Of a stretch of DNA of 21,593 bases, positions 3,180 through 12,207 are shown piece by piece (positions within the stretch are counted from its first letter, which is position 1; every line of letters begins with the position of its first letter). Position numbers and translations under genes: made by a program. Origin of the DNA: a virus; IMG/VR virus record IMGVR_UViG_3300028742_000091, positions 1-21,593 of that record, one strand, 5' to 3'. Below the pieces are notes generated by a model that worked only from the letters and a program-made list of their open reading frames with translations, had not been told where the DNA came from and made no database searches.

Positions 3180-3264
3180 GCGAGAGTGGCGGAATTGGTA
3201 GACGCACCAGATTTAGGTTCTGACATCGAAAGATGTGCGGGTTCGAGTCCCGCCTCTCGCACCA
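3180..3264 (+). tRNA. tRNA-Leu (anticodon TAG), prophage integration target
   Basis: 85-nt class II tRNA. Acceptor GCGAGAG / CTCTCGC, variable arm CATC-GAAA-GATG, T-arm GCGGG / CCCGC, CCA encoded. Anticodon loop TTTAGGT gives TAG (Leu CUA). The outer anticodon-stem pair is a C-A mismatch. The gene is intact although a prophage begins just downstream: the integrase stop lies 85 nt past its CCA and points toward it, the usual arrangement for tRNA-targeted tyrosine integrases whose att core rebuilds the tRNA 3' end. Confidence 0.96.
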
Positions 3265-3348: not shown

Positions 3349-4566
3349 TCAAATCGAAGCATCGGAAGCCTCAGCAGCAGCGGCGTTCCGTAGCTGGGTC
3401 AGATTCATTGCGGCACTGGTGAGACTGCTGGTAGCCAAGTGCAGGTAGCCCTGGGTCGTGACGATGGTCGAATGACCGAGCCACTCCTTCACCACCATCA
3501 TGTCCACGCCGGCCCGCAGCAGGCGGCTCGCGCAGGTGTGACGCAGGGAGTGGATGACGCAATCCCCGTGGGTGACCCCGGCCACCTTCTTGGCCCGCTT
3601 CCAGATGTGCTGTGCCCGACAGGCGTTGAGGTCGGCAAACGGGCCTTTGGCGATCCCCTTGCACCCGTCGAGTACCTCCCGGCACTTCTCGGTCATGGGC
3701 ACGCTGCGCGGCTTGCCGGTCTTTAGCTCCGTCTTCGTGTGCAGCTTAATCATCCCCACGGTGGACGAGCGGGGCATCTCCAGTTGCTCCCAGCGCAGCT
3801 TCAGGGCCTCACTGAGCCGCAGGCCCGACTCGACCAGTACCAGGAACAGCGCGTGGTAGCGGTAGGCGTTGAGGTGGCGCGGAGGGCCTCCCTGGGGGCC
3901 GGGGCGTTCCTCGTCCAGCCCAAGGACCGCCGAGAAGATCGCGGCCTCGTGCTCGGGGGACATGAAGTATTCCCGTGCGCCCCTCTCCTTGAGCTGCTTC
4001 ACCTTCGGGAAGGTCAGAGGGGCGCCAACCCAGCTCGTCGGGTCTTCCTCGCGTTGCTCCACGATGACGTTGAACATGCGGCGTAGGACGGCGAGGTGTC
4101 GGTTCACGGTTGCCCCGGACAGCCGGCGTTCCTCAGACAGCACCTTCACGACTCGCTTCACCGCCCGCCCGTCGATCATGGCCAGGGGCGTGTCGGCCCC
4201 TAGAATTTCCTCCAGCGTCCGCGCGAGACGTCCGTACTCCAGAGACGCCTTTATGCGGCCCCACACGGTCAGGTCGCGCAAGCAGCGGTCAAGGGCCACC
4301 TTGAGCGTGAGCCCGCCCTCAGCGCGCAGAGCGGAAGCGTGAGACACACTCCCTTCACCACGCACGAGTGCAACGATGTCCGCCTGGGTCATGAGGGGGT
4401 TCTGGCGTACCGCCTCGGCCACCTCTGCCTCCTTGCGTATCGCCAAGTCCTTCTTTCGGGTGTTGGAGCTGACGACGATGCGCCGGCCGTTCACTTGCAA
4501 GCGGATCATGTAGTACCGGGTGTCAGCTTGGCCCGGTTTGATGGTTCCCTTCAGTTCTAAAGGCAT
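3349..4566 (-). CDS. int: Tyrosine-family phage integrase
   Basis: Site-specific recombinase that inserts and excises the prophage at tRNA-Leu. The 405 aa protein has an N-terminal arm-binding/SAM-like core (about 85-190) and a C-terminal catalytic domain with Arg250 (ESGLRLSEAL), a lysine in the TKTELKTGK turn (278-285), His339 and Arg342 (HSLRHT), His365 (WLGH) and the nucleophile Tyr374 (TQGYLHL). All catalytic positions are present, so it looks functional. The ATG has a good Shine-Dalgarno (AGGAG) just upstream. Its stop is 85 nt from the tRNA-Leu end. A terminator separates it from the upstream winged-helix gene, so the two are at least partly transcribed apart. Confidence 0.96.
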   Translation of the reverse strand: MPLELKGTIKPGQADTRYYMIRLQVNGRRIVVSSNTRKKDLAIRKEAEVAEAVRQNPLMTQADIVALVRGEGSVSHASALRAEGGLTLKVALDRCLRDLTVWGRIKASLEYGRLARTLEEILGADTPLAMIDGRAVKRVVKVLSEERRLSGATVNRHLAVLRRMFNVIVEQREEDPTSWVGAPLTFPKVKQLKERGAREYFMSPEHEAAIFSAVLGLDEERPGPQGGPPRHLNAYRYHALFLVLVESGLRLSEALKLRWEQLEMPRSSTVGMIKLHTKTELKTGKPRSVPMTEKCREVLDGCKGIAKGPFADLNACRAQHIWKRAKKVAGVTHGDCVIHSLRHTCASRLLRAGVDMMVVKEWLGHSTIVTTQGYLHLATSSLTSAAMNLTQLRNAAAAEASDASI

Positions 4567-5612: not shown

Positions 5613-5732
5613 GGAGTTTCCAAGGTAATTGACGATTTGAACTGAGTCCGGCCGCAGGTAACGACGCCGCTTTCACCGGCGTTGGAGTCTGTTTGTGGAA
5701 GTCGCGCACCGTCGCGTCGCGGAGAGGTACAA

Positions 5733-6158
5733 GTGAACAAAAAGCCAGTGATCCTCGTTGTGGACGACGAACACTTAGTTTTGGAAACTGTCGTCGCACT
5801 ACTTGAGAACATCAGGGGCTACAACGTCATCGGTGCGCACTCATTTGATAGCGCGGCAGGCCATCTGGCTGATCGCGACTCTGTGGCGATCCTTATCAGT
5901 GATTACAGGCTCTGGAAGCGGAGGTCAGGGCTAGAACTCTGCGAGATTGCTGTGGCTCTCAACGCCGGCATCGCTATCGTTCTGATGTCTGCGGAGTCCG
6001 AGTACGACATGAGCGTGCGACCGCAGCGGGCGGTCTACTTGCAGAAGCCCTTTGGACGCTACGATCTGCTTAACGCGATCAAAGCCGCGAAGTTAAAAGT
6101 TAAAGAGGTGAACAGGGATGCCGGAGGAAGTGAGAGCAGCGCTCTTGCCGGTGTGTAA
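5733..6158 (+). CDS. Single-domain (CheY-like) response regulator, prophage cargo
   Basis: A 141 aa receiver domain with no recognisable output domain. The acidic pair Asp11-Asp12 (VVDDEH), phosphoacceptor Asp57 (LISDYRL), Ser86 (VLMSAES) and Lys105-Pro106 (LQKPFG) match the CheY active site, so it should accept phosphate from a histidine kinase. The GTG at 5733 is preferred because GAGAGG lies 5 nt upstream and the receiver fold starts immediately after. No kinase is encoded nearby, so a host kinase would have to supply the phosphate. It runs opposite to the phage genes and overlaps the next gene by 41 nt. Cargo rather than phage core is inferred from orientation. Confidence 0.85.
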   Translation: MNKKPVILVVDDEHLVLETVVALLENIRGYNVIGAHSFDSAAGHLADRDSVAILISDYRLWKRRSGLELCEIAVALNAGIAIVLMSAESEYDMSVRPQRAVYLQKPFGRYDLLNAIKAAKLKVKEVNRDAGGSESSALAGV

Positions 6159-6901: not shown

Positions 6902-7837
6902 ATGAAGATTACTTGGTTTGCGATTGCCATTCTCGGCCTGCTGATGTTGTCGCCGAGCGTCTTTGCTCAAACTGCGGGAGACTATGCATACCTTTGCAAC
7001 GACTGCACACCGGCCCAAACGCTTGCGGACGCCCAATACGGCGGAGATGGCGATTACTTCATCTACGATTTCGTTCAAAGCAAACTGACGCACTACAGCG
7101 TCACGGGTAGCGACACGAATGTCGTCGGAGCGCCCAATAACAACGCACCGAACGTCAACCAGCCTCGCAAGGTGACGTTGGTAGCGAACACGGCTGCAAG
7201 CCTCTCGGTTTTCAGCAATGCGCAGACTTTGTATAACCAGAATGGCGGAAGCGCGAGTGTCTACGGAAGCGCCAGTGTCAATATTGCTTCGCCGGCTCTA
7301 ACCACGGCTATATCGATGGGGCCACACCCCTTGGTCGATCCAAACGGGCGCGCAAATGCATTCGACATGGTTCAGTCGCCCAGCTGGCAGCCAACCCTTA
7401 TAAATTCGGCCATTGGCAACATCGCCTGGCCTGCGACCGTCAGAACTGATATCGCAACAATTCTGAATGTGTTCTTTAACAATGGCTTGATAAAGACACC
7501 GATCCAGTGCTTCGTCACAATAACATTTCCGGATGGAAGCACTTCGATCATCCAATTCAACACCACCACGCAGGCCTGGACCTACGTCGCAAATTCGTCA
7601 AAGGACGCGTACGGCAATCCGATCCCGGAAACTTCAGTCGAGGCAGCAGGCGGCCTCAATTCAGCGAGGAACTACACCTTCCCCGGCAACGCCAACGGTA
7701 ACTTTGTGGGCAACCAGCAAATTCACAACATGAACGCACTTGGCATCAGCGTCGATGTAGTGAACTATAATGATATATGGGTACTGGCTTGCACCAACTC
7801 TGCGGGCCAGACTCACTGTGTGACCATACTTGAGTAG
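6902..7837 (+). CDS. Secreted protein of unknown function, 311 aa, prophage cargo
   Basis: A clear signal peptide (MKITWFAIAILGLLMLSPS, likely cut after VFA at about 22) is followed by a mature domain rich in Asn, Ser, Thr and Gly. Cysteines occur in a YLCNDC motif near the new N-terminus and again near the end (LACTN, THCVT), suggesting disulfides. It is exported and periplasmic or extracellular; no membrane anchor or enzymatic motif seen. AAGGA lies about 9 nt upstream of the ATG. The region looks more AT-rich than the phage core and is on the opposite strand, both consistent with acquired cargo. No family recognised. Confidence 0.8.
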   Translation: MKITWFAIAILGLLMLSPSVFAQTAGDYAYLCNDCTPAQTLADAQYGGDGDYFIYDFVQSKLTHYSVTGSDTNVVGAPNNNAPNVNQPRKVTLVANTAASLSVFSNAQTLYNQNGGSASVYGSASVNIASPALTTAISMGPHPLVDPNGRANAFDMVQSPSWQPTLINSAIGNIAWPATVRTDIATILNVFFNNGLIKTPIQCFVTITFPDGSTSIIQFNTTTQAWTYVANSSKDAYGNPIPETSVEAAGGLNSARNYTFPGNANGNFVGNQQIHNMNALGISVDVVNYNDIWVLACTNSAGQTHCVTILE

Positions 7838-7852
7838 GCTGGGGTAACTGCC

Positions 7853-8137
7853 ATGAATTTTGTGAGAGCACTGATCTTGCTGCTGTTTTCGTACGCTTCA
7901 CTAGACGGTGCCATTCGACAAAATATGGCACTCATTGAGCCCTCAACGGCGCTGGTGATGTTTGGCTTCTCGGGCGTGGTAGGCCTGGCTTCGATGTTGT
8001 TGTACAAGAGCCTGAAGGCGCGCTACGGCTACGATGGTCGATCCACTTTCGTCAGCACTGCACTGGTAGCAGCCATGGTGATGTCCGGACTATGTTTCAT
8101 AGTCCCGCTCGTGAAGGTTGCGTCCACTGTCGTTTAA
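7853..8137 (+). CDS. Small membrane protein, 94 aa, three predicted helices
   Basis: Hydrophobic stretches at about 1-20, 32-51 and 67-90 with a charged loop (KSLKARYGYDGR) between the second and third. It follows the secreted protein by only 15 nt and is probably co-transcribed with it. Its TAA overlaps the stop codon of the convergent early phage gene, so the cargo block ends exactly against phage DNA. Function unknown; an immunity or export partner for the secreted protein is possible but unproven. Confidence 0.7.
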   Translation: MNFVRALILLLFSYASLDGAIRQNMALIEPSTALVMFGFSGVVGLASMLLYKSLKARYGYDGRSTFVSTALVAAMVMSGLCFIVPLVKVASTVV

Positions 8138-8640
8138 ATCGCGAGACCGGCTACGTCAGGATAATGGGCAACCTGTGCTTCGTTCCTGGCGTAGCCATTT
8201 ACCGTGCGGCTAGCGAGTCCCAGCGCCAAGTCATAGGCGCACTTCTTGGCGTAGTCGCCGTCATCGTCAACGCCCCACAAGGCATCGCTTTCGTCCGTAG
8301 GATTCCCTTCGACATCCAGCAGGGTCACGACGACGCCTATGTACTGCCATCGGTCGTTGCACCACGCCTGCAGGTAGGCGAACTCCTTGTCAGCGGCGTC
8401 CGCCGCATCCGGCCCTTTCAAGCCCTCGCTGCGGGCTTTGGCGACCGCCCTGGCGTAGTCATAGAAGCGACCACCGCTGCGACCGAGGAGCAACACACGC
8501 TCTCCCGGTGCCTTGTCTCGCCGCACCCAGTCCGAAACGGTTCCCAAGGTGTCCATGTTGTCCCAAGGGAAACCCGCGTCCGTATCGGGTTCGAGAGTGA
8601 CCCCGAAGGTGAGGCCGTCAATTTCGATGGTGTCACGCAT
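8134..8640 (-). CDS. Early-region phage protein, 168 aa, unknown
   Basis: A soluble, acidic protein (MRDTIEIDGLTFGV...) with Asp/Trp-rich segments and no membrane segment. GGGAG lies 8 nt before the ATG and the start overlaps the preceding 69-codon gene by 8 nt. It is the last gene of the early block transcribed from the 10.3-10.5 kb promoters. The general look matches small conserved podovirus proteins of unknown function, but I cannot name a family. Confidence 0.75.
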   Translation of the reverse strand: MRDTIEIDGLTFGVTLEPDTDAGFPWDNMDTLGTVSDWVRRDKAPGERVLLLGRSGGRFYDYARAVAKARSEGLKGPDAADAADKEFAYLQAWCNDRWQYIGVVVTLLDVEGNPTDESDALWGVDDDGDYAKKCAYDLALGLASRTVNGYARNEAQVAHYPDVAGLAI

Positions 8641-8914: not shown

Positions 8915-9526
8915 TCAGTGGTTCCAGAACGCGTAGACCGTCCCGTTGACACTCTCGAAGCTGACGTCCCCGCCTAGCTTCAGGTCACGCAGGTAGCTTT
9001 CGGTGCTGAAGTAAGCCCGCAGGTTTTCCGGCATGGCATCCAGCGTCCCCATGTCGTCAAGGAATTGCTCGCACCACGCCAGCTCGCTATCGGCTTCCCC
9101 GGCGCGGGCATCTTCAAAGCCCGATTCGGTGGCGTACTGGCTCCCCACGCTCTCCACGTAGGCGACCCACGCGTCCCCGTGGTCTTCAATGAGCCTCACT
9201 TGCTCCAGCAAGTCATCCAGCGACGGGTTCTCGCCCATGTTCGGGCAGTCGTCGTAGTCGTGAATCGACCACTCTTCAGCGGACGGAACTTCCCCGGTGC
9301 CGTTGCAGACCGTGCAAGGGCCTTCCTCGCTCCCGTTCTGTTCGTAGAACGTCCCGTTGCACTGTGGGCATTCAACGGTCACGTTCGGCTGCTTGGAGTG
9401 ACGCAGCATTGCGGCAATCTCCACCATCACATCGTCGGCATCCTTGCCGGGATCAAGGTCGATCCATTGGCCCAACAAAAGCCCCGCGTTGTAGTCGCTC
9501 AGCGAAGCCACATAGATACGTGCCAT
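8915..9526 (-). CDS. ardA: ArdA-type antirestriction protein with a CxxC zinc-finger-like insertion
   Basis: ArdA proteins are acidic DNA mimics that block type I restriction enzymes on DNA entry. The N-terminus ARIYVASLSDYNAGLLLGQW and the later GEADSELAWCEQF (143-155), Leu-rich and YFSTESYLRDL segments are typical of the family. Length 203 aa exceeds the usual roughly 165-180. The excess is a 30-residue block at 53-80 with two CxxC pairs (C53/C56, C71/C74) and DnaJ-like CxxCxGxG spacing. The ATG at 9526 is chosen over an upstream TTG because AGGGA precedes it. It sits among the early genes, where T7 has the analogous Ocr (0.3). Confidence 0.85.
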   Translation of the reverse strand: MARIYVASLSDYNAGLLLGQWIDLDPGKDADDVMVEIAAMLRHSKQPNVTVECPQCNGTFYEQNGSEEGPCTVCNGTGEVPSAEEWSIHDYDDCPNMGENPSLDDLLEQVRLIEDHGDAWVAYVESVGSQYATESGFEDARAGEADSELAWCEQFLDDMGTLDAMPENLRAYFSTESYLRDLKLGGDVSFESVNGTVYAFWNH

Positions 9527-11790: not shown

Positions 11791-12207
11791 TCACACCTTC
11801 AGGGCCTTGATGGTCTCCACAGGCAACCCGGAGTTCGGGTCAAGCTCACAGGCGATCTTCACGGCCACTGCTGCGGACTTGCCGGCGTGCATGGCGCCGA
11901 GGGCGAAGTCAGCTCCGCTACCGATGGCATAGCGAGTCCCTGTGATGTCCATTGCGAGACCATCGCCACTGTAGTGAACAACACGCCCGTCTAGGTGCAT
12001 GACCAGGGTGTCGTACTCCCCTTCGGGGATGGTCGCTGGGTCGCCGAAGAAACTGCGGAAGAAGCGGTGGATGTCCGCAACGATCCCCGCACCGGCCCCT
12101 CGGGAGCCATCAGGGAGCTGCTGGACTTTCGAGCTGGTGTGCATGAAGCCCCCAGCGATGCGAGTGTCCACCGCGATGTTCTTGCCGTCGTAGGCGACAG
12201 TGGTCAC
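11791..12207 (-). CDS. HslV/proteasome beta-like Ntn-hydrolase
   Basis: 138 aa. After the initiator Met the chain begins TTVAYDG, giving an N-terminal Thr nucleophile as in HslV and proteasome beta subunits. Asp14 (AVDTR), Lys27 (SSKVQQL) and the AIGSGADFALGAM segment near 114-126 correspond to the conserved Asp, Lys and GSG region. It is shorter than HslV (about 175 aa). No HslU-like ATPase is in the window. The GTG start overlaps the preceding membrane-protein stop by 4 bases (GTGA), so it is translationally coupled to the lysozyme group. It could process virion or lysis proteins or assemble with the host HslU; both are inference. Confidence 0.85.
   Translation of the reverse strand: MTTVAYDGKNIAVDTRIAGGFMHTSSKVQQLPDGSRGAGAGIVADIHRFFRSFFGDPATIPEGEYDTLVMHLDGRVVHYSGDGLAMDITGTRYAIGSGADFALGAMHAGKSAAVAVKIACELDPNSGLPVETIKALKV

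Follow-up and report, generated by a model that had tools for sequence, protein, structure and literature searches.

It is an open question why ArdA proteins differ in the restriction systems that they inhibit. As a mimic of DNA, ArdA acts against type I enzymes (PMC3906837, PMC10149784). The viral record IMGVR_UViG_3300028742_000091, whose positions 1 to 21,593 are called the window here, encodes an ArdA-like protein with two CxxC motifs inside it. We asked what this internal block is, how it is distributed among ArdA proteins, and whether it may bear on the enzyme that is inhibited. A first-pass annotation, made from the DNA letters, had suggested that the insertion could contact a different restriction or modification partner.

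The window encodes a full-length ArdA protein

Performing profile searches, we find that the translation of 8915-9526 (minus strand; N-terminus MARIYVASL) matches PF07275 (ArdA) at E 2.9e-26 and 93.4 bits, with a curated cut-off of 27; the match spans 187 protein residues over 148 profile positions. The protein also hits phrog_2059 (anti-restriction protein; E 5.9e-28), so the ArdA-like assignment of the first-pass annotation holds. The start codon agrees with the homologues in the alignment. Two further IMG/VR contigs (L002 and L003) encode the identical protein, which excludes a sequencing error in the window contig. Its net charge of -31 over 203 residues keeps the acidic, DNA-mimicking character that had been assumed; the net charges reported for ArdA are -22 to -29 (PMC3906837). 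A small ArdA (sArdN/sArdC) was rejected, because those proteins have about one third of the ArdA length (PMC12548430) and the window protein is full length.

An AlphaFold2 model, for which 28 block-bearing sequences were aligned as input, has a pLDDT of 95. In the comparison with the ArdA fold proposed at the outset, this model resembles the crystal structure of Tn916 ArdA (Orf18, 2w82, PF07275), with a Foldseek E of 3.9e-6 and a VIA Z of 8.8 (rmsd 3.3, 157/162 residues aligned). This was the sole convincing PDB match; the other VIA-align rows had Z <= 4 and were left out of the comparison. The two proteins have in common the whole fold, the acidity, and the EE.xIHDY and RD motifs. The window protein is an ArdA by sequence and by predicted fold, and it presumably has antirestriction activity.

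Table 1. Coordinates of the features of the window.
Feature	Position	Strand	Details
ardA	8915..9526	minus	203 aa; ATG at 9526, stop 8915-8917; Pfam, phrog and fold match
Block-carrying hairpin	9281..9382	minus	predicted strands at residues 49-52 and 79-82 (AlphaFold2)
Double CxxC (zinc-knuckle) block	9293..9370	minus	residues 53-78, CPQCNGTF...CTVCNGTG
tRNA-Leu, last of six tRNA genes	3180-3264		
Tyrosine integrase	3349-4566		PF00589 E 5.3e-25; then phage genes

The ardA gene lies in a putative T7-like prophage

The left end of the window holds a gene that we take to be bacterial ftsH, together with six tRNA genes. The tRNA-Leu gene stands directly beside the tyrosine integrase and probably marks the attachment site, and the second end of the prophage falls beyond the window. 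The genes for the virion appear T7-like, namely a terminase (phrog_38), an internal virion protein and DNA_Packaging_2 (PF11123). The closest relative of the protein in a named genome, from Rhodanobacter sp. A1T4 (75% identity), has a similar setting, with endolysin-like and integrase-like frames within a few kilobases. From this setting, the window is probably a T7-like phage integrated in a Rhodanobacter-like host.

Several neighbours deserve mention. A response-regulator receiver domain protein (5682-6158, plus strand; PF00072, E 2.4e-11) is encoded between the integrase and the virion genes, an unexpected cargo for a T7-like phage. On the strand opposite the virion genes, 6902-7837 (plus) encodes 311 aa with a signal-peptide-like start, and this protein has no Pfam match. 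Close downstream of ardA, 8134-8640 (minus) matches phrog_11104, of unknown function (E 8.1e-37). Elsewhere in the window, 11791-12207 (minus) is a frame resembling the HslV peptidase family (phrog_1040, E 6.5e-29).

A DnaJ-like double CxxC block replaces a hairpin turn in domain 1

The double CxxC block noticed at first is real: CPQC (53-56, within CPQCNGTF, 53-60) and CTVC (71-74, within CTVCNGTG, 71-78) are present in the translation and recur at the same site in homologues. Its extent had been put at residues 53-80; the second motif ends at 78. The block cysteines are C53, C56, C71 and C74. In the 28-member alignment, C56, C71 and C74 are invariant, while C53 is conserved in at least 90% and, in L018 and L024, is displaced by a few alignment columns. 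All four cysteines were present in each of 18 aligned blocks (18/18), and the glycines of the CxxCxGxG pattern were often missing; only the cysteines and some glycines are conserved. The linker between the CxxC pairs varies from 4 to 31 residues among bearers that retain the four cysteines, and the whole insert from 21 to 49 residues. A chance pair of CxxC motifs is ruled out by conservation in 32 distinct homologous frames.

Searching the PDB with a profile of the 18 blocks, we obtained the E. coli DnaJ cysteine-rich domain (1exk, E 1.1e-6), in line with the DnaJ likeness claimed for the block, and anti-TRAP (3lcz, E 0.0024; 2bx9, E 0.007). PF00684 (DnaJ) and PF15777 (anti-TRAP) each matched 14/18 block sequences (E up to 0.1), and the CxxCxGxG-type motif pair is common to both families and the block. 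With the window protein itself, both families scored below the Pfam curated cut-offs (PF00684, 16.3 of 32.7 bits; PF15777, 17.8 of 32 bits); we therefore call the block DnaJ-like and do not call the protein a DnaJ-domain protein. Among viral models, Foldseek matched the DnaJ-like phage protein A0A0K2CZZ6 (BFVD) with an rmsd of 0.9 over 27 columns of unspecified aligned range; further DnaJ-like phage proteins gave short alignments. The DnaJ cysteine-rich domain has four motifs and two zinc sites. Unlike DnaJ, the window ArdA has a single motif pair, mounted on an ArdA hairpin. In anti-TRAP, a paired motif of the same type binds zinc (PMC2896485). Judged by these likenesses, the block very likely binds zinc, most likely one ion.

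Mapped onto Orf18, the block falls between residues 26 and 43. Domain 1 of Orf18 comprises residues 1-61 (PMC3906837), and the insertion is thus in the N-terminal domain, as first described. Orf18 has no block; its residues 26-43 span the site where the window protein has an extra ribbon. Besides the strands that carry the block, two extra strands (61-64 and 67-70) are predicted between the CxxC pairs, and the block forms an additional four-strand ribbon in the model. In comparison, the predicted structure of L045, a relative with the turn HPETGE and without the block cysteines, shows a plain hairpin (46-49/56-59) at the same site (pLDDT 91 overall, 76-78 around the hairpin). This indicates that the block takes the place of a hairpin turn in domain 1. 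Since the dimer interface of Orf18 is in domain 3 (PMC3906837), the elongated ArdA dimer would carry one knob towards each outer end. The charge per residue is -0.08 in the block and -0.16 in the remainder of the protein, so the block does not lengthen the charge mimicry.

The block recurs in many phages and comes and goes

We collected 128 distinct ArdA frames, for which IMG/VR was the main source beside phage and plasmid records, and 82 from prokaryote genome contigs. Both samples were ranked by similarity to the query, and the counts are not prevalences (true shares are likely lower): in the 128-frame set, 32 had the block, 9 had a short turn between the same flanking sequences, and in 87 neither form was present, while the block was present in 5/82 frames from genome contigs. 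In the bearers of both samples, it occupied the same position and had all four cysteines, in two CxxC pairs. The survey that the first-pass annotation called for thus finds the block in many ArdA and not in all, and the block is no peculiarity of the window protein, as near relatives and scattered others share it, including that of a T7-like Pseudomonas phage. The genome-contig bearers were Rhodanobacter, Stenotrophomonas sepilia, Pseudomonas parasichuanensis, Pseudorhodobacter and a Rhizobiaceae bacterium; those in phage records were two T7-like Pseudomonas phages (three records). A block unique to the window phage is ruled out by these bearers in phage, IMG/VR and genome records. The plasmid records gave no match covering the block; the whole-protein matches there (best 40 of 4896 records) were about 440-520 bases long, too short for an entire ArdA.

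One of the T7-like Pseudomonas phages, vB_PsyP_3MF5, has an ArdA-like protein (QLI47555.1) with 38% identity and the double CxxC block at the same site. Its inter-CxxC linker has 20 residues, as against 14 in the window protein, and the sequence is unlike. The gene is an early gene of this T7-like phage, in the interval from the terminal repeat to the RNA polymerase gene, and unlike the window it has no integrase-bearing prophage setting.

The nine short-turn relatives (L036, L038, L041, L045, L050, L053, L055, L057 and L059) keep the flanks PNVTV...VPSAEE around a mostly HPETGE-like turn, and are natural controls for the role of the zinc block.

We inferred a tree from ArdA with the block excised, a quick reconstruction with about 180 columns and long branches. 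The block label needs 13 changes on this tree, an unsure count in which gain and loss look alike, and at least 4 of them are forced by well-supported branches. With the block left out of the protein, an AU test rejected a single clade of block bearers (p-AU 3e-14). L027, with the block, and L055, with the turn, form a sister pair (support 82), which suggests that the two forms can interchange. The block is thus an existing variant in many phages, which seems to come, go and be exchanged between otherwise similar ArdA proteins.

The block is hypervariable and may be exchanged as a unit

Across 51 pairs with >50% and <97% identity outside the block (non-independent, as sequences overlap between pairs), mean identity was 31% inside the block, with the shared cysteines uncounted, and 65% outside it. 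In the pair L060/L064, DNA identity was 86-90% on both flanks and 40% in the block, with breakpoints just past the first Cys codon and just ahead of the last one; the amino acid identity was 35% in the block and 81% in the least conserved 26-aa flank window. In L002/L161, DNA identity was 78-80% on either side and 36% inside, and the corresponding amino acid values were 31% and 65%. L014 and L161 showed the opposite, with 77% amino acid identity in the block and 61% in the right flank. These comparisons suggest that the block was replaced as a whole in about two independent cases, with rapid divergence accompanied by indels as a possible alternative. Among phage records, the search for a donor gene of the L064 block returned only ArdA of three Pseudomonas phage records (E 0.003); the remaining matches were at chance level.

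Discussion

We propose that the prophage ArdA would imitate B-form DNA and occupy the DNA groove of type I restriction-modification enzymes, while the four-cysteine motif of DnaJ/anti-TRAP type in the domain-1 hairpin would bind one zinc and hold up a small knob. The residues between the cysteines change fast and appear to be swapped as a cassette around fixed cysteines, and the knob would be a variable surface for contact, adapted to whichever enzyme a given phage encounters. Candidate partners are host HsdR or HsdM, or another DNA-binding defence protein. We lean slightly towards this picture, in which an antirestriction protein that mimics DNA has a knob that is stapled by metal, can be exchanged and contacts a variable partner. 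The hypervariability, the cassette-like exchange and the hairpin-only relatives fit a knob-partner contact and are no proof of it. More tentative, and on the unlikely side, is the further idea of the zinc block as a specificity cassette, with phages swapping the knob, on a DNA mimic that is conserved in other respects, to follow host restriction or defence enzymes. Type I enzymes are plausible partners: hsdR was above cut-off in the Rhodanobacter, Stenotrophomonas and Pseudomonas genomes bearing a block ArdA. It was also above cut-off in 5/14 control genomes, so hsdR in the hosts is weak evidence.

ArdA without the block is active, as in Orf18, and the core function therefore does not need the block. 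A loop that evolves fast and keeps its cysteines can be a tolerated extension without any partner, which counts against the contact reading. The main rival is accordingly an inert stabiliser, a purely structural or neutral zinc staple closing a long hairpin. Its gain, loss and lengthening would have little effect on which enzyme is inhibited, and its variability would reflect relaxed constraint. The variable insert length with only Cys and some Gly kept speaks for such a staple, as do the short-turn relatives with the same flanks, which presumably work. However, the block divergence in L060/L064 and L002/L161 is sharper than that of other loops of the same proteins, and the block of L014/L161, more alike than its right flank, suggests whole-block exchange. 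We regard the inert staple as unlikely, if still a serious rival.

The block could instead give ArdA a target outside restriction, such as a transcription factor, BREX or another DNA-binding defence protein. Some ArdA alter gene expression in E. coli (PMC13300388), and ArdA and Ocr, both DNA mimics, do not inhibit the same systems (PMC10149784); however, the ArdA of these two studies are not shown to bear the block. Direct support is lacking in the window and its relatives, and we consider a non-restriction target improbable. In DnaJ and related zinc fingers, CxxC pairs can serve as redox centres. The block as a redox or zinc switch, adjusting ArdA activity or dimerisation to the state of the cell, is least probable of all, since, although zinc is required for anti-TRAP assembly (PMC2896485), the Orf18 dimer interface is domain 3 and not domain 1 (PMC3906837), and hypervariable residues between the cysteines are unexpected for a plain switch.

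Among known systems, Ocr (gene 0.3 of T7) works like ArdA as an early, DNA-imitating phage protein that blocks type I enzymes. To our knowledge, its fold is unrelated to that of ArdA, and we know of no zinc motif in Ocr. N- or C-terminal extensions of ArdA are mentioned in PMC3906837, and an internal zinc motif is not mentioned there. The ArdA of B. bifidum is said in PMC12548430 to have an additional domain, which may or may not be related; in the literature searched, we found no description of a zinc motif in ArdA.

The ordinary part of the finding is that the protein is an ArdA whose block has company in relatives. Unusual are the internal zinc motif, undescribed in the literature searched, and the variability of the block, which offers a direct test of ArdA specificity. 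ArdA proteins that are nearly identical apart from an exchangeable finger, together with the short-turn relatives, form a clean natural comparison by which the source of ArdA specificity becomes directly testable. If the block were a specificity cassette, a swappable finger would direct a general imitation of DNA at particular enzymes.
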